Source: an uncultured bacterium
Lineage (GTDB): Bacteria > Patescibacteriota > Gracilibacteria > Absconditabacterales > Absconditicoccaceae
Length of the DNA: 51,018 bases
Direction of reading: 5' to 3'
Assembly: GCA_903953935.1 (NCBI GenBank)
Contig: CAJBLF010000045.1
Span: forward strand, 1 to 51,018
Shown: positions 2,046 through 46,974 of the stretch, one piece after another
How the letters are laid out: every line of letters starts with the position of its first letter
How positions within the stretch are numbered: the stretch's first letter is position 1
The notes under the pieces: model-generated
The model's input: the letters and a program-made list of their open reading frames with translations, nothing else
Database searches by the model: none
What the model was told of the DNA's origin: nothing
Made by a program: the position numbers and the translations under genes

Positions 2046-2954
2046 TTATGCTGCAATTTTTGCATCATTAGTAGAAAATGATCAAATGTTTTCCACTGAT
2101 TTTAGGTTTTTGGTATCGAATGACATTATTTGATCATATCAATCAGATTCTTTTATATATAGTCCGTCATATTCACTTTTAAGTATGGCTGCTGCTTTTT
2201 CTAAAGCTTTTCTATCATTAAATCATCATCATCAAAGCTCTTTTATCTTATTTTCTAATTCTACTTTATTTTGAAATATTATAGGTTTCTTTATTACTAC
2301 AAAAAGAGAATATAATGTAGATTCTGTTACTTCAACATCATTGTCTCATTTCTCTTTTGCGTATGATTCTGCTATCTCTTTTTGTGAAGTAGTAAATACG
2401 CCAAAACTTCATCATCACTGACTATTAAGTCATGTTTTGAACTCATCAAATTTTTTCTTTCCACCATGAAAGACCATCCATGGCTCTCAATTTTTATCTA
2501 CAACTTTGCTAGCATTTTTTGGATCGTTTTGTCGATCCCCAAACCAATTTTTAAAATTTGTGCTTCTTGTTTCTAGTCGATACGTTATAGCAAACTTATT
2601 TCAAAATCTATCACGTGCAAGACCAAATAATGCACTATCAACTCTTTTTCAATTTTTATCTATTGTAATATTGTCTACTTCTCCTTTGTTGTTTATGATG
2701 ATGTCTCACTTATCAATTCCTTTTTTTGCTATTTCCATCAATTCTTTTCTGTTTATTTTTGAACTGATTGTATCTTCAAGGTTCAATAAAAATATCTGTT
2801 TATGTCTTTCTTCGTTTTGTATCTTACTCTCTTTGTTTATGTCTTTCTGTATATTCTGTAGTCATTCTTTATATGCTTTATCGTCAAAAGATCATTCTGA
2901 TGAAGAACTACTGTTTTCTTGAAATTCATCTATTCTTGTTACGGTGTTTATCAT
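2046..2954 (-). CDS. ADP-ribosyltransferase-like protein (ART-PolyVal type, 302 aa)
   Basis: The N-terminal ~135 residues are charged and unrecognised. From about residue 128 the protein matches the ART-PolyVal domain seen in phage and mobile-element polyvalent proteins: FKNWFGDW, then NDPKNASKVVDKNGEP, then WMVFHGG (the HG of the NAD pocket), GGGSFGVFTTSQKEIAESYA, and a Tyr/Leu-rich strand IKKPIIF. The second W of FGDW is a CGA codon (2532-2534), where the family has Trp, one of several hints of CGA=Trp. Known family role: ADP-ribosylation, or an NAD-binding relic, in phage-delivered multidomain proteins. Here the domain stands nearly alone, so an effector, toxin or defence role is possible. 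The substrate is unknown. Stop UAA, start ATG. Confidence 0.72.
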
Positions 2955-3075
2955 CTATTTACATTAGTTATAAATAGTCACTCAATTATATTCGAAAATA
3001 AGAAAAAGTCAAAAACGAGAATGTTTTCTCCTCTGGATTTAACCTGATACTATGTTTTATAGTGAATTGTTTTTT

Positions 3076-4284
3076 TTACTTTGAAAACATCTCCATAATC
3101 TCTTTTACGGTGAGTATTGATTCGATTCTCTCTGCAGATGATCCTGTAAACATAAGTCATTCTCAACGTCATCATGTTGTAGATCTAACCAGTTCTTTGT
3201 TGATACACATTTGTGCTAAGTTAGGATTTCCGTCTCTATATCAGCAATGAACGAGACAGTTTTCTATACATTTTCTTACTTTGACCTCAACGTCATTCAT
3301 TCTCTCAAATATTCAGCTTTCTTCTAATGCTCTTGCTGGTAATCATGCACTAGACATGTAGGTAAGTATCTTTTCTTTTGTGGCATTGACTATAGCATCT
3401 TTGAATTGTTGACTTGCTCGGCTTTCTTTGCTTGCAGCAAATCTTGTTCCTACCTGTACTCCAGATGCTCATAGCTTTATGATTTCGTTCATTTCTTCTT
3501 TGTTGGTGATTCCTCATGCTCAAATTACAGGAATGTGTATTCCTTTAGATTTTAATAGTGCAATAACCGCTGGGATTGCTGTCGACAATTTTCCTTCTTC
3601 ATTCTGTGTTTTTTCTACGTTTGCTGCTCCTAAATGTCATCCTGCTGTTGATGGATCTTCCAGTATTATAGCGTCGGGTAATCTTCCGCTTTTTTCTCGT
3701 AATTTAAGTAGTACGTTTACTCCCTTTACATTGGATAATATAGGAACAATCGCTACATCAGGATAATCTTTGGTTAATTCTGGTAAATATTTAGGTAATC
3801 CTGCTCATGAAACTATACCGTCTACTCATGCTTCACATGCAGCTTTGACTTGTTCTTCGTAATTGGTTGTGGCAACCATGATATTGATAAAGACTGCTCA
3901 TTTTCCTTGTGCTATTTCTTTAGCTTTTTTTACTTCGCTTTTGATACACTCTATTTGTGTTTTGAGTAGATATGCATCAATCTGTTCTTGAGATAATTTA
4001 CCTCTTGGATTCTCTGGTGTGCTTGCATTCTTTTTTGCTTCCTTGATATTTTGTATCAAAAGGTGTCTATATTGTGCGGTCTTGTGTAATGCTGTAGCTG
4101 ATATTGTCCCTATTCATCAATTGAGTGCAACGTTACCTGCAAGTTCTGCGGTTGATATCCCTACGCCCATTCATCCTTGAATTACGGCAATATCTACGCT
4201 ATGCTTTCATATCGTCAGTTTGTGTCATATCTGTTCTCAGGCTTGTTCTATTTTTTCCATAGGTAATGTATAACTATTTGACAT
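3076..4284 (-). CDS. Nitronate monooxygenase / FabK-like flavin oxidoreductase (402 aa)
   Basis: An FMN-dependent TIM-barrel enzyme of the NPD/IMPDH superfamily. Visible motifs are V-I-Q-G-G-M-G-V-G at the start of the barrel, AGNVALNGGIGTI, VSGAGLP, a DAIILEDPSTAGGHLGA segment and IPVIGAGGI followed by GASGVQVGTRFAA for the phosphate-binding loops. A CGA at 3697-3699 lies at the Trp that relatives carry before LPDA. The C-terminal ~80 residues hold three Cys (KCIENCLVHC) and a Gly-rich end, longer than typical nitronate monooxygenases. The family oxidises nitronates or reduces enoyl-ACP; which applies here cannot be decided. It is divergent from the small acidic gene at 4415. The 131-bp spacer presumably carries both promoters. 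Confidence 0.85.
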
Positions 4285-13147: not shown

Positions 13148-13558
13148 TTATGAAAATGGATGAAAACCTTGTTTCTTGAGGTTTTCTATAGGTAAAAATA
13201 TTGGCGATGGAAATTTTTCTCGTTCTACTCGTTCTCGTTTTTCGCATTTTTCTGGTTCCATGATTTTGACTTCTCATTCATCGTAATCACAGATTGCATA
13301 TGCTGTTACGTAGTGTTTTCCTTCTTCTTGAAAGATATCATTGGTAAATGGTCCTGTGATTATGTTTTTGATTTTTATTCCTGATTCTTCCATGGTTTCT
13401 CTGATAGCACACTCCTCTATAGATTCGTTAAATTCTAAATGTCATCATGGAAAACTTCGTGTTCCGTCTCCATGTGCATTTCTTCTTTTTCCCAATAATA
13501 TTCTACCGTCTTTACGAACTATTACTCAAACACCTACTTTGGGTCTATTGGTTTCCAT
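13148..13558 (-). CDS. Nudix hydrolase, NUDT15/MutT-like (136 aa)
   Basis: The Nudix box is complete: GHLEFNESIEECAIRETMEE at about 39-58 (Gx5Ex7REUxEE). The PGGH before it uses two consecutive UGA codons for Gly. Four CGA codons sit where NUDT15-like relatives have Trp: GT-W before SFPGGH (13457-13459) and the W-x-W-x-x-W pattern in EPEKCEK-W-E-W-VE-W-EKFP (13235, 13229, 13220), followed by IFLPIENL. Read as Arg these would break the family signature, so this gene is the best single evidence for CGA=Trp. Expected reaction: hydrolysis of a (modified) nucleoside triphosphate to the monophosphate. It lies 69 bp downstream of sufB. Confidence 0.92.
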
Positions 13559-13627
13559 GTTTTTGATATTATATAAAATTATATCGTTTTTTTTATTGAA
13601 TATACTATTGTGTGTCATTAAACCTTT

Positions 13628-15013
13628 CTATCATATGGATCCTTCCATTTCTAGTTCTACTAATTTATTCAATTCTCCTGCGTATTCTAGCGGAAGTTTT
13701 TTGATTACAGAAGACAAGAATCCGTTGACGATCATTGTGGTCGCCTTGTCCTTTGTTAGTCAACGAGCCATGAGGTAGAAAAGTTCAGATTCATCTATTT
13801 TTCACGCGCTGGCTTCATGTGCTACAATAGCAGTCTCATTATCTGATTGAATGTTTGGTATGGTGTTTGATATTGATGTTTCATCAAAGAGCAATGCATC
13901 ACATTGGGTGTTGTTTGTTGCATGATCAGCTCATTTTCCAATAACGACAAGTCCACGATATGTATTGATTCCTCATCTCCTGGAGATGGATTTTGCTACA
14001 ATATTTGATGATGTGTGTTTGCCTAGGTGAATAGCTTTGGATCAAGTGTCCTGATGTTGTCATTGTCCCGCTACTGCTATTCCAAGCATATCTGTTTTGC
14101 TGTAATCTCACTTGAGTATCGAACAAGGATAAAGCATTGTCGTACATGATCCAAGGTTTCCATTCACCCATTCCATATAGCCATGCTCCTCTATTACCGC
14201 TCTTTTTGTGTTGAGATTATAGGTGTTGGTTGATCGATTTTCTACTGATGAATATTTCATCTTAGCATTTTTTCCTACAAATATTTCTACCAATCCAGCG
14301 TGTAACGATGCTTTATCAAATTTTGGTGCTGAACATCCTTCTATATAACTTCCTTCAGCATCGTCTTCTATAATGATCATGGTATGTTCAAATTGTCATC
14401 ATGCATAGGTATTCATACGAAAGTATGCTTGTAGTGGATCGGTTAATTTTACTCACTTAGGTACGTAGATAAATGTTCCTCAGCTTCGGACGGCACCATG
14501 TAAGGCTGCAAACATATGATCTTGTGCTGGCACTAATTTCATGAAATGTTTTTTGACTAACTCTGGATACTTAATCACTGCTTGTGGCATATCTTCGAAA
14601 ATGATTCATTGTTTGGATCGTTTCTCCTGGATTTGATGATAGACATTCAATGAGTCATATTGTCCTCCTGCACCTGCTAGATATTTTTGTTCTGCTTCTG
14701 GTATTCAGAGTCTTTTAAATTTATCTTTTATTTCCACTGGTACATCTTCTCGATTGTTAGCATATCCTTCATGGTCTTTATGTGGCTTAGCATAGTAGAC
14801 AATGTCGTCGAGATTCAATCCAGAAAGATCTGGTCCTCGTGTAGGTATTTTCATGTTTTTGAATATCTTTAAAGATTCCAAACGGTGATTTAACATCCAT
14901 TCGGGTTCTTTTTGTTCAGCAGAAATCTTCCTTACGGTATCTTCTGTGAGTCCTGTGAGGTAGAGTTCATATGTGATCTTGTCTGATGATTCTAGTGTTG
15001 ATTTGAGTGACAT
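13628..15013 (-). CDS. sufB: Fe-S cluster assembly protein SufB (461 aa)
   Basis: Component of the SufBC(D) scaffold. The sequence follows SufB throughout: PEWMLNHRLESLKIF, GPDLSGLNLDDIVYY, a GxGGQYDS segment, EDMPQAVIKYPELVKKHF, LHGAV-W-SGGTFIYVPKGV, EGCSAPKFDKASLHAGLVEI, MEWVNGNLGSCTTMLYP, AVAGQGQHQDTGSKAIHLG and TNNTQCDALLFDETSISNTI. The Trp in AVWSGG (codon 176, 14486-14488) is CGA; relatives have Trp there. Its stop follows a UGA-Gly codon. It begins 14 bp after the ABC exporter gene, which separates it from sufC. No sufD or sufS is in the window. Confidence 0.96.
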
Positions 15014-15027
15014 GTGTTTCTCTATAA

Positions 15028-16749
15028 TTAAAATCCTGACTGTAATTCTATCATTTTGTAGTAAATTCCTTTCTTTGTGAGTAATTGCTGATGATTTCCG
15101 CTTTCTATTATTTTTCAATTTTCCATAACATGTATTATGTCCGCTTGTTTTACTGTTTGTAGTCTGTGTGCAACTACAATGACTGTTCTTCATATAAATA
15201 AGTTATTGAATGCTTTTGAAATATCTTCTTCTGAAAAGCTATCTAATGAGCTTGTTGGTTCATCAAGAAAAATTATTTTAGGATCTTTTAAAAAGAGCTT
15301 CGCTATAGCAAGTCTTTGCTTTTGACCTCAACTCAATTTGACTCATTTTTCTCCTATCTGTGTTTGTAATTTATCTTTGAATGTATAAATAAAATCACAT
15401 TTTGCTGATTTTATTGCATTGTCAATTTGTGCTTTAGTTGGTTTTTTTCTTGTTCCGTAAAGCAGGTTATCTATTATGGTTCAGTCAAATACATTTGGAT
15501 CTTGGGTAAGATATCATATCTTATGGTAATAAGATTTTAATGCTACTTCTGATAATTTTTGTCCATCAATAATTATGTTTCATACATCGGGATGTACGTA
15601 TCATGAAACTAATTTAAGTAATGTTGTTTTTCCTGATCCGCTTTCTCATACAAACGCAGTTTTTTTCCCTCATGAAATTTCCAAATTAAAATTCTGGAAT
15701 ATGTTTTTATTTCCGTATGAAAATGTTATTTTATCTAATCTTATATCTCATCATACATAACTAAATTCTTTTCCTTCCTCGTATCATTTTAACTTGGGCA
15801 TTTCATCAAATGTGTTTCGTAATTTATGTACATAGGTTATCTGATCATAATAGTTGAGCATCATATCGTTTGCTTCAAAAAGTACTCAAGTAATTTGATT
15901 CATTAACATCCAGATAAGTGTGAATTCAGCGAAAGAAGAATTTCATCGGAATATTTGTAGTCCATACCAGAATATTAATCAGAATTTAACAAAATCTATT
16001 AATGCTCTTGGTAAATCGCTTGCTATGATAAATCATTTGCTTTCTTTTTTATCCCAGTATATGATATTTGAAAAGTATTCACTAATCATATGTAATTCTT
16101 TTGCTATTTTGCTGTTTTGTAATATCTCAAATTTTGACATAATTAATCTTACAATTGATCTATCGGTCTGAATAAATATTTCCCTTCTATTTTTTCTTAT
16201 TTTATCTAGACGCTTATTCCCGAACCACGCAAACAAAACCATAATAATAAACACTATCACTACCATCAAAAGTATCCATCGTCATAAGCTAATGGTTATT
16301 ATAGTAAATATCATTAAAATATTTGTTATAAACCTAACTCATCCTCATAATAAGGTGTCGTTTACTATTGATCTTTGAGAGTCGACTCATTTTTGGATGA
16401 TACTATTGGATTGTCCTGTGCCTAATCATTCTATTTTATTGTTGTCTGATTTAATGTATTTTTCCAAATAGTGGTTATAAACATTTTTTGCAAATAATCT
16501 TACAGTTATTTTTCTTGATGTTCTTATGAAGTAATTGCTTGCATAGTTAACAACTATAAATCATAAAAAAATAAATAAATATGTCTTAAAATATTGAAAA
16601 TCCTTTATTTCCATTCATTTTATTGCTTTACTTACTAATAATGCATTGATGGGTCGCATTACTCAAAAATATGCAGATGTTACGATGAAAAATACGTAAC
16701 GCCCTGGTAATTCTTTTATCGGGGATAATAATCTCTTTAATGTTTTCAT
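15028..16749 (-). CDS. ABC exporter, fused permease-ATPase (573 aa)
   Basis: An ABCB/MsbA-type half-transporter. Six hydrophobic segments in the first ~300 residues (for example [20 protein letters not shown]) precede a nucleotide-binding domain with Walker [14 protein letters not shown], a Q-loop in [10 protein letters not shown], signature [13 protein letters not shown], Walker [13 protein letters not shown] and switch VIVVAHRL. The signature and Walker A glycines are ordinary codons, but many others are UGA. The start overlaps the sufC stop as TAATG, implying translational coupling. Its location between sufC and sufB is unusual; whether it handles a sulfur compound or merely shares the operon is unknown. 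Confidence 0.93.
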
Positions 16750-22912: not shown

Positions 22913-22960
22913 CTAATAACTAATAATGAATAACAATGGAAAATAGTTGTTAGCTGTTAT

Positions 22961-23031
22961 AGGATCGTGGTGAAATGGTATCACGTCGGTCTCCGAAGCC
23001 GTAGTCGTAGGTTCGATTCCTACCGATCCTG
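22961..23031 (+). tRNA. tRNA with CCG anticodon, tRNA-Trp-like (predicted tRNA-Trp(CCG))
   Basis: A full cloverleaf: acceptor AGGATCG/CGATCCT, D arm GTG...CAC with GG in the loop, anticodon loop CTCCGAA (anticodon CCG, U33 present), T arm GTAGG-TTCGATT-CCTAC, discriminator G73, CCA not encoded. By anticodon this would be Arg (CGG codon). The body is that of tRNA-Trp: A1:U72, G2:C71, G3:C70 and G73 are Trp identity elements, and the loop CUCCxAA differs from bacterial tRNA-Trp CUCCAAA only at position 36. Bacterial tRNA-Arg usually starts with G1. Together with CGA/CGG at Trp positions in genes here, it most likely carries tryptophan to CGG. The 27-43 pair is a U-U mismatch. Confidence 0.85.
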
Positions 23032-23080
23032 AACTAATCCCCTTACACGGGAATACTATATTCTATATTCTACATATTGA

Positions 23081-28171: not shown

Positions 28172-29248
28172 TTATCTTATAATCATTATTTTTCTTCCTA
28201 CGTTTTGTCATTCTCTTCCATAAATCTCAGGAATTGCTTGGATGTGTATTCCCATCTGGGTTCCATAATCAGATAGATCTTTTTCTAGAGAATTTGTTGG
28301 CGTTCAAGATGATTCTTGATTTGCATAATATGGAATAGTAAAAATAACCGAAGGTTTTACTCCTCATATCGAAAGTTCTTGGATTCTGTCTAAAAAGCTT
28401 TTATATATGACTAATACTTGTTTTTGAAATTTTTGAATATCTTGTGATGATGTGTTTTTTCCGACTATTGGTCAGAGTCGTCACTCGGTGACAATTAATA
28501 CATTTCTCTTCATTTTTTCGTTTATCAATTGGTTTTCTATTTTCTTAGTTATGTCCTGGGTAAATATATTAAATTGTTTGTCCGGAGTATGAAACTTAGT
28601 GGTTTTTCGCCGTATGGCGTTTTGTTCAGCATACGTGGTTTTGATATCTGATCCTATGAAATCATATCCGAGATGGTTTGCTAACATTCACGTGGTTCAT
28701 GATCATACGAATGGGTCATAGATAACGAGATTTTCTATGTCGAGGTCAGAATGATGGATAACATTAGTTAATCAAATATTTATCATCATATGTGCTAATT
28801 TTGCTGGCATCATGCCCATATCCATGCTACGTCCTGGTTTACCAAAATCTACCGTCTCATATACTTCAATATTTTGATACTGCTCTACTATGCCGTATAG
28901 ACCATTTTCAAGATTGATGACCTCTTTTCCTTTTGATTTTATTTCTCTGTCGGTATGGAAGATGTCTACGAGTTTATATCTCCTAATTCAGACCGTCCTC
29001 TTGAGGTGTTTGCCGTTTGCTTCATTCTGGATTCATATAATCTTCACTTCTTTTAATAATTCCTGCAAATCCTTTTCTTTTACTACTGTTCCTATCTTGA
29101 TGGTTCATCAAAGTTGTGGTAATAATTCTGCGTATTTTGTATCAAAAATCACTATCCCCTTTTTTGGATAACTTATCTCTTTTGCTTGAACTAATTGTAA
29201 TTCAATCATGCTTATTTCTGGATTTTTTCCTAAGACTGCGAAGTACAT
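28172..29248 (-). CDS. Trm11/Trm-G10-like tRNA methyltransferase (358 aa)
   Basis: An N-terminal THUMP-like region (MYFAVLGKNPEISMIELQLV is typical of archaeal/CPR Trm-G10 proteins) is followed by a Rossmann methyltransferase with motif I IYDPFVGSGTTGMLANHLGY, several glycines being UGA, and DFIGSDIK after strand 2. In place of the expected catalytic (D/N)PPY the sequence reads VLIVTEGRLGPIVG, a variant I associate with CPR members. Expected role: N2-methylation of a tRNA guanosine; with the altered motif the activity is uncertain. The C terminus ends GREMDVG-like with IMIIR. No neighbour hints at another substrate. Confidence 0.78.
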
Positions 29249-35728: not shown

Positions 35729-36862
35729 TTATGAGTTGATGAGTGGTCTGACTACGTATCTATAAGAAGCATCATCTTTGTCCATTAAAATGAGTGGTTT
35801 CTGATTGTCGATAACATTGAAAATTAATTCATCTCCTTTTATGATTTTTATGAAATCAGTTATATATTTTCCATTGATTCCAAAACTCATTGCTGGTCCT
35901 TCGATTATAGCTGGAATATTGGTTGTTCAAGCTCCCTTATCTGTTTTTCCTGATGAAATTACGATACTGTCTTTTGTGGTTTCTATCTGGATATAATTGT
36001 TTATATCTCTTGTTAAGATACCTATTTTTCTGATAGCTTTTTCACATAGTCCTTTATCTACCAATATTTTTGTATTGAAATTTCTTGGCATGATTTCTTC
36101 TCTATCGTATTCTGGAAAATTACCTTGTATGAGTAGTGATGTAGCCAATATTTTCATGTCTTTTATTTCTGCCTGGAATGCGATAAGATTCTCTGAATAT
36201 TTGATAGTCAGATTTTCTGATTCATTGTTCATAGCATATTCGGATATTTTTTGTATGTCTGTCATGGTTACTTTTGGCACAATTAGCGCAAAGTCATTTT
36301 CTTTGGTTCCGGAATGTGCTTTAAATTCTGATAATCTAAATGAATCTGTACCTACAAAAATTAGATTGTCTTCTTTTGCTTTTAACAGTACTCCCGTCAA
36401 TACAGGACTGAAGTTTTTTTCTGTGACAGCGTATTCTACTTTTGAAACTCCTTCAGCAAACAACTGTGTCTCTACAGATAATGTGTTTTCATTTGGCATT
36501 TCTGGTAATGCAACATATTCACTCGCCGCTATACCATTGATTTCAAAACTATCTTTTGCTGACTTTAAACTCATGACCTGTGATTTCTGATCAACGCTTA
36601 TTTCTACTTCTTTTTCTTCTATACTTTTGATGATGTCAGAAAACATTCTTGCGTTTACCGTAATAGCTCCTTCCATGGTAATTTTACATGGTATTTCTAT
36701 TTCGATATATTTTTCCATATCAGTTGCTCTCAATAATAATCCATCAATCGCTGCCTTGAAATAGAAATTTTGCAAAATTGGTAATGTTGCATTTTTGGAA
36801 ACAAATCTCAATCCGAGATCTATGACATCCAAAAGTTTAGCTGTTTCGATAGTGATTTTCAT
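35729..36862 (-). CDS. dnaN: DNA polymerase III beta sliding clamp (377 aa)
   Basis: Ring-shaped processivity factor. The sequence follows the three-domain clamp: MKITIETAKLLDVIDLGLRF, NFYFKAAIDGLLLRATDMEK, VNARMFSDIIKSI, EYVALPEMP (domain link), AVTEKNFSPVLTGVLLKAKE, FVGTDSFRLSEFKA, LIQGNFPEYDREEIMPRNF and a C-terminal half beyond UGA at 35927 (PAMSFGINGKYITDFIKI, KPLILMDKDDASYRYVVRPL). The conserved terminal -MPVR-like strand reads RYVVRPLINS. Upstream is uppS on the same strand (51-bp gap). Confidence 0.96.
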
Positions 36863-36913: not shown

Positions 36914-37615
36914 TTATTTTCAATAGTTGCGTAGACTTGCTATTTCATCGAATCGAATCAATGCTTTCTGATATTCTTGTATATCAAATTCCGGACATTT
37001 TTTGGCAGTGAAATATAATTCTGCGTATCCTATCCACCATGACATAAATCCTGAAGTTCTTTGTGCTTGATCTCATTTTGTTCTGATTATCAATTCTATT
37101 GGTGGGATATTTCCAAGATCTAAACTTTGAGTGATATCGTTTTCTGTGATCATTGTCAGATCCTTGCCTTCTTTTGCTAATGTTTTTATGCCTCTTACGA
37201 TTTCATCTCTTCCTCCATAATTGATAGCAAAGACGAAATATCTGTCCGAATTATAGGTGTTTCTTTGTTCTTTTGCTATTAGATATTCTCTAAATTCATC
37301 TGTTATGCCCTCCAAATCCCCAATAACCTTGAAGTTAACCTTATGCTCTTTTAAGAATCCATCGAGATCTTCCTCTACGATTTTGTACATTGTCATAAGG
37401 AAATCAAATTCTTCTTTTGGTCTTTTTTTCGCATTTTCTGTACTCAACCCTCGGAGGGTAAATACTTTCACATCGGTTTCGGTAAAGGTGTGAACAATGA
37501 GTTCTATTGCTTTTTCATATGATGTCATATATGCTTCCGCGACTGTTTTATTGTTTGCTTTGGCTCGCGTCCTATTCCCGTCTGGTATGATAGCTACGTG
37601 TTTTGGGTATTCCAT
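36914..37615 (-). CDS. uppS: Undecaprenyl diphosphate synthase UppS, cis-prenyltransferase (233 aa)
   Basis: Makes the C55 lipid carrier for cell-wall glycans. HVAIIPDGNRT-W-AKANN is the catalytic DGN loop. The residue that is Trp in essentially all relatives (DGNxRWA) is CGA here (37565-37567), strong evidence for CGA=Trp. Further motifs are VKVFTLRGLSTENAKKRPKE, DRYFVFAINYGGRDEIVRGI, PPIELIIRTKGDQ (after the UGA) and SGFMSWWIGYAELYF. Ends NYGK, stop UAA. It is divergent from prs. It is the first gene of a likely uppS-dnaN-prepilin operon. Confidence 0.95.
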
Positions 37616-37814: not shown

Positions 37815-38852
37815 ATGAAGGAGAAATTGCATATTATAGGTACACAAGATACCAAACACTTGGTTGCTTCTCTGATTGCCATTCTTCAGCGTGATTTCCA
37901 AGACACTATTACTTATGAGTATGTGGACTATCAAGAGTTTGCTAACGGAGAGATAAAGGTTGTTTTAGATGAGTCGGTTCGTGGAAAACATGTATATGTC
38001 GTTTGAGATGTTAATGGTCATCACAACAGTGATACCTATCACATAAAATATAATGATAGATTAGTTCAACTCTTGCTTATTTTGCAATGTGCAAAAAATC
38101 ATTGAGCCAAAACAGTTAATGTAATTCCTACCTGCTTTCCTTATTCTAGACAAGATAAACCTATCCAGTGATGATTGAAAGAAAGAGTATCTAGAGAGCC
38201 ATCTTCTGCTCAATTTATGATAGATATTTTTCAAGATCTTCTTACTACTGATTATTGTATTACTATAGATATACACAACCCTGCTGTGATTAATAATTCC
38301 AGAAAAACCAATTTTGTAAATCTTTATACAGGATGGTTTGTGCAACAAGTTATCACAAAATCAAAAAAAGATAATGTCGTACTTTCTCCTATGGATGAAT
38401 GATGACTTAAGAAGGTGTCTTCTGTATCAAAAGATCTTGCGCTTGATTATCTTACTGTACTTAAAAAAAGAGACTATTCTCAACCCAACACCATTGATGA
38501 AATTTTTGTCCATGGTAGTATAGCGTGAAAAAATATTATTATTCATGATGATATTCTTGATACCTGAGGGAGTTTAATAAAACTTATAGAAGAAATTAAC
38601 AAGAAAAATCCCCAAAGTATAAATGTTACTATTACTCATGGTATGTTTAATAAAGATGCAATTAGTAAACTTACTCGTCTTTATCATGAAAAGAAATTCG
38701 AGGCTATTTATGTTACTAATACTATTTATAGAGAGGAATATCCTGAATTTGTGCAAATCATCGATGTTGCGCCTATTTTTGCAGACGCCATAAAAAATAT
38801 TTTCATGTGATGAAGTATCAATTATAATCATTGAGTCAATTTATCTAAGTAA
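37815..38852 (+). CDS. prs: Ribose-phosphate pyrophosphokinase (PRPP synthase), 345 aa
   Basis: Synthesises PRPP. The N-terminal half has HIIGTQDTKHLVASLIAILQ, EYVDYQEFANGEIKVVLDES, GKHVYVVGDVN (UGA) and VIPTCFPYSRQDKP (the catalytic-loop region). The C-terminal half carries SPMDEGGLKKVSSVSKDLAL, EIFVHGSIAGKNIIIHDD and ILDTGGSLIKLIEEI (the PRPP-binding D-D-x-x-x-T-G-G). Six or more UGA codons are spread through it. Length is slightly longer than usual (about 315), with a longer end. Its stop overlaps the convergent miaB stop by 8 bp. Confidence 0.94.
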
Positions 38853-40350
38853 CAACAATCTTTCCATAGAGCTTAAATGCTATTGTTTTTGTTATCTCTA
38901 CGGTAACAAACTCCCCTACCCTTATTCATTTTTTTGTTGCTCATTTTTTTCATTCGAGGATAGGTCATGTTTCAATTATTATTTGTTTCATGTTGTCTGT
39001 ATATCATTCAATTACTCATGCACGTATTTTGTTGATGAGTACTTCTTTGGTTGTCCCTAGCTCTTCATTGTTGTTTTTACGTGAAATGTCTTTCAAAAGT
39101 TCATTGAGTCTGTTTCGTCTGTCTCGTTTTACTGCACGTGATATGTTGTCAGAATAATTTTTTGCTGCCAATGTTCCTGGTCTAGAAGAGTATATTCCGA
39201 TATATACCATATCAAATCATCCGTATTTTACTAGGTCTAATGTCTCCTGAAAGTCTTCTTCTGTTTCATCACAAAATCACACAATAATATCTGTTGTAAT
39301 GCTGATTTTCCTTGTGAGTTTTTTTATGTTGTCGATAAACTCTTTAGCTTGTTGGACCGTATATCCTCTAAACATTTTTTTTAACATAGTATTTGACCCT
39401 GACTGTAATGGTATATGGATATGCGGACAAAGTTTTTCCTCTTTTTCATGTAAGTCTAATAATTCTTTGCTATAATAGGTAGGATATGGTGACGTATATC
39501 TCAGCCGTTTAAGTCCCTTAAGCTTTAAGATTTTTTTTACGATAGTGATGAATTCTGGATGCTTATTTACTATTTGTCCTAATAAAACTATCTCTTCGGC
39601 TCCATGTTGTAGATGGATTTTTGTTTCATTGATAATCTGATCTACGGGGAAATGTTTTTCCAATCCTCTAGCGTAAGGTACGATACAATATGCACAAAAT
39701 TGATTACATCAGGTAGAAATAGGAATATAGACGGTTTTTTGGTGACTATTCATAGATGTGCTAATGTTTTCTGGAATGATTTTTTCATATTCGTTAATCA
39801 TTTCTTGGTCGTAAGAAAAGGTGTATCCTAGTTTTTTGAGTATCAAAGGAAGTAATCCCGTGTCGTCTATTCTTCGCATAAGCTCTATGTTTTTTCGTTT
39901 TTGAGTAAGATTATGAAATATTGGATTGAATGCATGATTGATTCCAATAAATTTTCAGTTCCCCTCTTTTGAGGACGCGTCATTTTTTGATTTTCAATTG
40001 TTTATTTCATCAGTAGATAATCATATTACTTTCGGTGTTTTGCTAGATGCTGATCCCATAAAATTTCAAACATTAAGTTTTCAACTTTCAGCTTTTAGTT
40101 TTCAACTTCTCATATTGTGTTGTATCATACATCAGGTGATTCGTACTTTTTGGTCCGGTCTGATTGTTTTGAGTTTCCCTGTTATCTTGTCTTCCGATTT
40201 TTGTTTTATAGAACAGGTATCAAAAATTATTATATCTGCATCCTTACTATTTTCTGTATAAGAAAATCAGCAGTTCGTCAGTACTGCGGTTATTCTTGCG
40301 CTATCTGCATAGTTCATTTGACATCCAAAAACCAAGACGTGAAATTTCAT
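38845..40350 (-). CDS. miaB: tRNA methylthiotransferase MiaB with inserted repeat segment (501 aa)
   Basis: Radical-SAM enzyme adding methylthio groups to i6A37 of tRNA. The UPF0004 domain starts VLVFGCQMNYADSARI (C10), with TNCGFSYTEN, IIIFDTCSIKQKSEDKI (C46) and ITGCMIQH (C74). The radical-SAM motif is STGCNQFCAYCIVPYARGLE (CxxxCxxC). IHIPLQSGSNTMLKKMFRGY and ITTDIIVGFCDETEEDFQET follow, with a C-terminal TRAM-like domain (RVGEFVTVEITKTIAFKLYG). About 50 extra residues (roughly 82-132) follow the third Cys region and contain RSGKLKAESGKLNV, a known style of CPR repeat insertion. Length is 501 versus about 440 normally. Confidence 0.94.
39955..40107 (-). repeat. In-frame inserted segment in miaB with TTGAAAA-type repeats
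   Basis: The minus strand here contains ACTAAAAGCTGAAAGTTGAA and related AGTTGAAAACT motifs, coding for SGKLKAESGKLNV and a Ser/Lys/Asn-rich linker. Compare the TTGAAAATTGA repeats around the PAGRQ palindrome in sufC. Confidence 0.5.
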
Positions 40351-40451
40351 ATTTGCTAGTATCTTCAAATAAATGGACTTTAGCGTAGCTATTTGCTGTT
40401 TGTAATCAATAAAAAATCAAAAAGTCTTGTTTTTTTTATATAAAAGAGTAT

Positions 40452-44667: not shown

Positions 44668-46974
44668 TTATTGTTGGATGATGTAGAAAGAGAATCATAT
44701 TGAGTTAGTAAAACCACCACTTAGAAAAAGTCCCATCTGTGATGTTAGAGGATATGTATTTGATGTGATATTTCACCCAAAATATGTATCTCAATTGTTT
44801 ACCGCAACGGCACTACATCGATCGTGAGCACCACCCCCCAATATTGTTGTGTTTGTGATTGTTCATACTGAGTCAAGATTTATGTGGAGAATATCTTGAT
44901 ATAAAACATTTAAAAATTCTGGTTCGTTTTTGGATCAACAAATGATTCCTCCTCCATTGATAAAATCAACATCATATGTGTATATTCAGCTTCATATATT
45001 CGTTTCCCAATTGTTTCCATAATTTTCATCTAATGAAGCAATAATTTGTTCGCTGTTACTGTTCCAATATTTGTAATAAATATTTCCATTGGTATCTACA
45101 TTTGCAACCCTACCTGCATGAGGTATAGAGAATTCTGATCCCACTATAGGATTTAAGTTAAGGTCCATTTTCCGGAGGAGACGATTTGTTTGATTACCAT
45201 ATCCAAGTTCAAGTAATAATCATCAGTTTGCGTCATTCAAAATAGTGATGTCTTTATAAAGATTGTTAATTATTTTACTTATTTTAACTATGGTTCCTTG
45301 TGGATTTATCTTTGCAACAAATGCAATATCATATCCTGTTACCAAGACACTATCTACATAATTGTTTCCATTTCATCAACCTATAAATCCTCATACAGCA
45401 TAGAGATTGCTGTCAGTATCAACATACAGTGAATGATTGTTTGGTTGAAATGTGTTGTATGTACCTACTGCTTTTTTTGCCCATACTCGTTTTCAAGATG
45501 TATTGAGTTTAGCTACAAAAGCACTTCTTAAATGTACACTACCTGTTAAGGTTATATTTCATAGTATGATGCCAGACATATATTCTCCAGCAACATAGGT
45601 ATTTCATATGTTGTCTGTGATTACTTGGCTTATAAATAAATGATTTTGTGTGCTGTTTGCATGTATGTGGTTTATCCATTGTAATTCTTTGGTGATAATA
45701 GAAACGTTTGCTATATAGGCATTTGCTCATTCTATTGCTGTATCTATTATATTTGTAATATGTAATCTGTCTTTGAATTCTCCTCAGAAATACAGATTGT
45801 TTCATACAGCAACAAGATCTTTTAATGTCATCAATGGGCTTGTACTAATATAAGAAGTACATAGGTTACCGTTCCATGAATAATTTGCAGCACAGATAAA
45901 TGTGCATTTTCCCGATGTTAAATCAAAGTTCCATGTTCAATTATTTTCCAATGATGTATTTATTGTATTTGCTGGTAGTGTTCATAGACACTGGTTTATA
46001 GGTGTTTGTTCTACGCATGTGTTGTTTTCCCATAGAAATCATTCGTCACAGGTAAATCTACATTCTGTTGTAGATGGTGTAATGTTGTATGTTCAAATGT
46101 TTGATGGTATATATGTTGTTCCGTCCCGATTTTGTGATATGGTGTTGGTTGTGTTCCAACTTGCATGAGCTGGTAGTCATTCACACGCTCTTTCTATTGT
46201 TGTAGCTACACAATCGTGGGTACTCGAATTATATGCGAAACCAGCATTACATATATAGGTACATGCTCATGCTGTTGTAGCGTAATTTCGATATGTGTTT
46301 CCTGGAATAGATCCTATTGATGTGCTAATTGCATATGTGGGTAATGTTCCTAAGCATGCATTATTTGTTGCTCAATTACATCCTGATCATGTTATATCCT
46401 TTCGTGATGTTCCATCGCATCATTGGAAACAATTGCTTATAAATCTTATTTCTCCTCCGTTGCTAGGAAGACAATCTCCTTGTCATGCATCACCAATTTG
46501 AATTGTTTTCATGGTTTTTATTTTTTGTGTTGCATTGAAATTGTTGTCGGTATCAAATCGAACTCATTTATTATCTATTCAACTGTATGATATGAGGTGC
46601 GTTCACATCTTTATGTTTCCGGTTGCTGTATGGTTTCATAAATTATCTCCTAGTATATTTTCGCTGTATGCATACATTACATTTCCACTTTCATCGATTC
46701 CCAAGACTTTTCATGAAAATGGATTTTTTTCTTGAAGTATTCCAGTTTTGATATATATTCCGGTATATGACATTTCTATAAATTTCTCTGTATCTAATCA
46801 AGATTGTGTGATTGTTATCTTCGCTATCGTTTGTCGAGCATTATTTATGTTTGATGTTATGTTGACTTCAGCAAGTGTGATGACTGACGCAAAACCTAGT
46901 AGTATCGTCAAAAACAGTAGAACGAGGTTCTTTGTTGATAGGTTGTTTGCTCCGATTTTGTGTACTTTAAACAT
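44668..46974 (-). CDS. Secreted Cys-rich / beta-propeller surface protein (768 aa)
   Basis: Signal-peptide-like start (KNLVLLFLTILLGFASVITL, then AEV). A shared N-terminal module follows (FIEMSYTGIYIKTGILQE, GKVLGIDESGNVMYAYSENI, GDNLGNHTATGNIKMGTHLI). Then come Cys-rich repeats of the CPR surface type (ACLGTLPTYAISTSIGSIPG, CTYICNAGFAYN, ISQN-W-DGTTYIPSNIGTYN, TECRFTCDEGFLWENNTC). The C-terminal ~380 residues have SBBP-like repeats (DNIGNTYVAGEYMSG, AFVAKLNTSGKRVWAKKA), suggesting a beta-propeller. Ends FYIIQQ. The Trp in QNWDG is CGG (46126-46128). Paralog of the next gene; probable adhesin or other surface protein. Confidence 0.82.

Follow-up and report, generated by a model that had tools for sequence, protein, structure and literature searches.

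A single tRNA gene, found in a window of 51,018 nucleotides (the whole stretch of DNA analysed, corresponding to contig C45 of its source genome), raises the question whether a tRNA with an Arg anticodon, CCG, can instead deliver Trp, so that CGG changes its meaning. The gene and its anticodon are located as follows:

22961..23031, plus strand: tRNA gene with anticodon CCG and a Trp-type body (A1:U72, G73, U20), CCA not encoded (ARAGORN, Rfam, sequence)
22993..22995, plus strand: anticodon CCG inside the loop CUCCGAA, predicted to read CGG (sequence)

The initial annotation took this sequence for a real tRNA with a CCG anticodon, and both programs agree: ARAGORN calls it as the only tRNA of the window, under the label tRNA-Arg(ccg), at 22960-23032, and Rfam model RF00005 matches 22961-23031 with 65.1 bits (gathering score 29), as a full cloverleaf. 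The tRNA is 71 bases long and features a 5-bp anticodon stem. The Trp-type acceptor, discriminator and CUCCxAA loop that had been described for it can be read directly: A1:U72, G2:C71, G3:C70, G73 and CUCCGAA. The D-loop, AAUGGUA, has U at position 20: A20, the Arg feature expected in the D-loop of an ordinary tRNA-Arg(CCG), is absent. Free RNA folding produced a minimum structure other than the cloverleaf, to which no weight was given. Very probably, this tRNA accepts Trp and reads CGG as Trp, with a Trp-type UCG partner serving CGA.

Identity elements were evaluated as in Shulgin & Eddy 2021 (PMC8629427), where A20 is a main element for Arg, and G73 with A/G1:U72 are the elements for Trp. 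The UCG-anticodon partner, predicted from the window alone, is indeed present, and is of Trp type; it is listed here with the ordinary tRNA-Trp of the same genome:

G000:C6:11369-11440: Trp-type tRNA(UCG)
C21:24848-24919: tRNA-Trp(CCA)

The true tRNA-Arg of the genome, with anticodons GCG, UCU and CCU, all carry A20 and A73, and no Arg-type tRNA with a UCG, CCG or ACG anticodon was found in it. The assignment of Trp rather than Arg identity elements to the CCG tRNA extends to the whole family: A1:U72 and G73 are found in 31 of the 31 family tRNA(CCG), A20 in none. Family tRNA(UCG) are of Trp type (G73, no A20) in 26 cases out of 27; the only Arg-type one, from G035, is located on a 2 kb piece, within a Pro-His-Arg-Arg-Leu tRNA cluster, and is probably a contamination. 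By pattern and similarity search, no clear tRNA(UCG) was found in G012, G013, G016, G025, G027, G030 and G032. In the other families of the class, A73 is present in 7 of 8 CCG and 16 of 17 UCG tRNAs, and A20 in nearly all.

In several genus members, the surroundings of the gene for the Trp-type tRNA(UCG), up to about 0.5 kb away, contain further copies of it, complete or partial (G000:C6:11474-11522; G001:C7:27412-27449; G004:C8:11255-11457). A genome from another family, G046, contains a CCG tRNA (G046:C5:3059-3087) with A1:U72 and G73, but with an A after GG in the D-loop; its TrpRS gene has many in-frame TGA. A separate or a shared CGG change is possible there.

The search for TrpRS in the genome yielded one gene (C24:12026-12991), and nearly every relative likewise has a single copy. 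From these computed features we infer Trp charging and in vivo decoding along the following lines. The single TrpRS would charge the CCG and UCG tRNAs as well as tRNA-Trp(CCA); the CCA tRNA would read UGG, the CCG tRNA CGG, and the UCG tRNA CGA, plus CGG by wobble. Arg would be left with AGA, AGG, CGU and CGC, served by tRNA-Arg UCU, CCU and GCG. Standard TrpRS recognises A36, which is missing from both the CCG and the UCG anticodons: a change in TrpRS is therefore implied. TrpRS positions 89, 106, 205, 216 and 264 are fixed differently between the family and its class relatives.

The bodies of the two tRNAs, identity positions left out, were compared to the tRNAs of related families. Both are nearest to tRNA-Trp: the CCG body scores 0.65 to tRNA-Trp, versus 0.59 to Arg-CCG and 0.58 to Arg-UCG; the UCG body 0.65, versus 0.59 to Arg-UCG and 0.49 to Arg-CCG. 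The closest non-CCG relative of the window tRNA is a tRNA-Trp, from G038. In the tRNA tree, however, none of the tested groupings is rejected (p-AU 0.42 to 0.86); since the 58 available columns reject no hypothesis, descent of the CCG tRNA from tRNA-Trp rather than from tRNA-Arg is favoured, not shown. Two separate origins, CCG from Trp and UCG from Arg, had been considered on the basis of base 37 and were dropped: the loop CUCCGAA also occurs in outside Arg-type CCG tRNAs, and tRNA-Trp from outside the family is the nearest match of either body.

The codons themselves were examined in the window proteins. Eleven of them, at 13457, 13235, 13229, 13220, 37565, 14486, 2532, 3697, 50240, 50225 and 46126, had been indicated as CGA or CGG falling on conserved Trp; all are in frame, and each is the codon reported. 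Their coincidence with conserved Trp was evaluated by comparing Pfam scores under the Trp and the Arg reading of CGA/CGG, where a plus sign favours Trp. The relevant genes are:

13148..13618, minus strand: Nudix hydrolase, four CGA; Pfam NUDIX 79.4 bits (Trp) versus 61.8 (Arg)
36914..37615, minus strand: UppS, three CGA; 161.6 bits (Trp) versus 148.6 (Arg)
13628..15193, minus strand: SufB, CGA at 14486; SUFBD_core +4.2 bits for Trp, SufBD_N -2.5
3076..4284, minus strand: nitronate monooxygenase-like protein, two CGA; +3.5 bits for Trp
38845..40368, minus strand: MiaB/RimO-type radical SAM protein, CGG at 39505-39507 corresponding to Trp288 (family comparison)
28172..29248, minus strand: methyltransferase-like protein, CGG at 28610-28612 corresponding to TGG in the same-genus orthologue
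44668..46974, minus strand: cysteine-rich repeat protein, CGG at 46126 (QNWDGTTY) and at 45172

The coincidence holds strongly for Nudix (+17.6 bits) and for UppS (+13.0), where DGNRT[W]AK is aligned to E. coli DGNGRWAK, and modestly for the SufB core and the nitronate monooxygenase; it does not hold for SufBD_N. The ART codon lies outside the Pfam domain, so that the score is the same in both readings; the Radical_SAM score is -1.8 bits under the Trp reading. The CGG of MiaB, at a site which we take to be Arg in other bacteria, was considered as a counterexample to Trp and rejected: relatives in the family have TGG or CGA in that column, an invariant Trp under the new code.

The source genome consists of 1.30 Mb in 65 contigs, is 96% complete and contains 39 tRNAs; about 628 kb of it were analysed, in stretches. 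In a distant test, 66 genes from 443 kb were aligned, with CGA/CGG masked, to about 530 kb of E. coli K-12, and columns in well-conserved context were counted. CGA corresponds to W in 11, F in 5, Y in 3 and R in none of 29 columns; as controls, TGG columns have W in 6 out of 18, and AGA columns R in 177 out of 278. With CGA holding Arg as often as AGA does, finding no Arg among 29 columns would have a probability near 1e-13. The near test was based on 265 reciprocal best pairs with a same-genus genome, G001. The 419 CGA columns are paired to CGA (283), TGG (75), CGG (23) and Arg codons (5); the 43 CGG columns to TGG (20), CGA (16), CGG (1) and Arg (4); the 361 TGG columns to TGG (221), CGA (107), CGG (9) and never to Arg. 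For AGA, 1490 of 1787 columns are Arg. CGA, CGG and TGG exchange as synonyms. Over all predicted genes, CGA (53.5 per 10,000) is more frequent than TGG (49.9), and CGG is rare (7.9).

Profiles scored on CGG only favour Trp for YebC (+6.2 bits), TGT (+6.0) and ValRS (+1.6), not for PNPase (-3.2); the PNPase column nevertheless features TGG in the G001 orthologue, despite Pfam slightly favouring Arg. The ValRS codon is aligned to a Trp of Thermus ValRS 1gax: an Arg match, seen in a first pass on orthologues, was discarded as a misalignment to another synthetase. The claim that CGA and CGG columns correspond genome-wide to Trp, not to Arg, is upheld by both tests, as well as by the gene pairs using TGA (201 Trp versus 4 Arg, see below), and sequence comparison thereby confirms that the two codons encode Trp in this genome.

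In-frame TGA is read as Gly: Gly is found in 131 of 182 TGA columns, when compared to E. coli. A UCA tRNA, labelled SeC by ARAGORN, is present in the genome. As a side observation, dnaN (window 35729-36862) uses TGA for one of its 18 Gly codons, with no TGA in its G001 counterpart; the gene, 94% identical between the two species, does not contain CGA or CGG.

The few Arg-paired columns are not randomly distributed. All four such CGG columns, in the comparison with G001, belong to one gene:

L052:12307-13818 (G000:C51:32307-33818): PIN-PhoH gene, no in-frame TGA

Six Arg columns of this gene, those of the PhoH R-G-R motif among them, are occupied by CGG (four) or CGA (two). In relatives any Arg codon may be found at the motif, where TGG was never seen, and CGA/CGG are kept in several lineages. 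PIN-PhoH is present in 9 of 36 family genomes and in none of 23 outside. When the pairs with G001 were sorted by TGA use, and columns with CGA/CGG in only one partner were counted, the 226 TGA-using pairs showed TGG opposite these codons in 201 cases and Arg in 4; the 8 TGA-free pairs showed TGG in one case and Arg in 11 (Fisher p 1.7e-14), these Arg columns coming from four pairs and not being independent events. Pfam scores for the TGA-free genes of G001 are higher with Arg than with Trp in 8 of 9 families scored both ways, the remaining one being unchanged (ThyA +16.1 bits for Arg, TldD +8.9, AAA_28 +6.9, Radical_SAM +5.1). In the present genome Arg is favoured for PhoH (+10.5), PIN (about 4.2-4.3) and AAA_28 (+4.6), Trp for Band_7 and Pribosyltran (by about 2 bits). 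TGG amounts to 117 per 10,000 in TGA-free genes, versus 47 in TGA-using ones; in the latter, the sum of TGG, CGA and CGG, 108 per 10,000, is close to the TGG value of the former. Because Arg columns, Pfam scores and TGG frequency agree, TGA-free genes are seen to follow standard decoding, with TGG as the only Trp codon and CGA/CGG as Arg. Native genes surround them, whether they occur alone or a few together, so that they are not stray contigs.

Some TGA-free genes deserve separate mention. On G001 contig C12 (L113:1503-2492 and 2620-3474), a TGA-free thymidylate synthase gene, with CGA/CGG as Arg (+16 bits), adjoins a TGA-using gene for a related protein; a similar pair is found on C43 of the present genome. 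On its contig C4 (L165:17655-19284), neighbouring OMP decarboxylase-like and phosphoribosyltransferase genes feature no TGA and a GC content of 0.40-0.43, and are likely to have been acquired.

The TGA-free genes were probably acquired from standard-code bacteria and are misread by the host, in conflict with its code. The retention of CGA/CGG at the PhoH R-G-R motif in several lineages is poorly explained by acquisition, and residual Arg decoding may play a part. It is doubtful that the acquired TGA-free genes are still expressed with CGA/CGG as Arg, via residual Arg decoding, beside native genes that use them as Trp, the codon then being truly ambiguous in one cell. Quite unlikely, too, is a general ambiguity of CGA/CGG, mainly Trp and partly Arg, by which acquired standard-code genes would still give working protein. 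It would account for the lack of depletion of the two codons at conserved Arg sites of TGA-free genes, where they make up 21-22% of the six Arg codons, for the shared location of PIN-PhoH in several members of the genus, and for its CGA/CGG at R-G-R in several lineages, where TGG was not seen. Recent acquisition, however, explains the same pattern, and the failure to find an Arg-type tRNA for these codons in the genome, along with the 201 to 4 ratio in TGA-using genes, argues against ambiguity. Comparing codon use across bins of TGA share did not discriminate between dual decoding and recent acquisition.

Two further alternatives concern the window tRNA itself. An ordinary tRNA-Arg(CCG), leaving CGG as Arg, is suggested by the anticodon and by the ARAGORN label, and G73 is found in some tRNA-Arg too; yet A1:U72, the missing A20 and the pairing of CGG columns with TGG and CGA make it very improbable. 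Reassignment might also be limited to CGG, with CGA still Arg, the situation in Anaerococcus and in RFN20, a clade of Bacilli: the window gene, taken alone, reads only CGG. The same tests, however, also show CGA as Trp, and the genome has a UCG tRNA of Trp type, so that this hypothesis is hardly credible at all. Decoding of both codons as Trp, by the CCG and UCG tRNAs, is the reading retained.

Sense-codon reassignments in bacteria are few. With proteins of SR1 stored in databases under code 25, Arg stands for Trp at about one residue in 170 (about 0.6%). Since CGA has overtaken TGG, this clade lends itself well to proteomics. The TGA-free class shows the effect of a changed code on gene import, since arriving codons are misread by the host; the notion that the code hinders gene exchange thus becomes directly testable. 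Experimental proof of the reassignment in this clade was not found in the papers searched. No description of a TGA-free, Arg-reading gene class was found either, including in the portion of PMC8629427 drawn upon, in a literature search not directed specifically at it.

The genome is a member of candidate division SR1 (Absconditabacteria): its MiaB has its closest named relatives in records from this division, including the complete genome RAAC1_SR1_1, CP006913. Like NCBI genetic code 25, which applies to SR1 and Gracilibacteria and has UGA as Gly, it uses TGA in frame for Gly throughout, and has a UCA tRNA; but code 25 keeps CGA and CGG as Arg, whereas both are read here as Trp. That such a reassignment had been predicted for Absconditabacteria, as stated in the initial annotation, is correct: Shulgin & Eddy 2021 (PMC8629427) predicted that CGA and CGG encode Trp there, with consistent tRNAs. 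Clade, codons, new amino acid, UGA as glycine and tRNA set (Trp-type UCG and CCG; GCG for CGU/CGC) are the same; the present genome is from another genus of the clade, and its CGA frequency, 53.5 per 10,000 of all predicted genes, compares to less than 37 of Pfam-aligned codons there, values which are not strictly comparable. Its GC content, 0.326 across 443 kb, is within the 0.26-0.38 range of the Absconditabacteria code. A 2026 survey of 4-bp anticodon stems (PMC13092985) treats the Absconditabacterales reassignment as established and reports a 5-bp anticodon stem for all Absconditabacterales tRNA(CCG), as in the window tRNA; its subject is the length of the stem rather than origin or codon columns. 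Anaerococcus and the RFN20 Bacilli likewise have a tRNA(CCG) with Trp identity features, but their CGA stays Arg and a tRNA(UCG) is lacking, while here both codons are assigned to Trp and a tRNA(UCG) is present. A known code is recovered in another genus, with stronger numbers, and the split between TGA-using and TGA-free genes appears to be a new observation.
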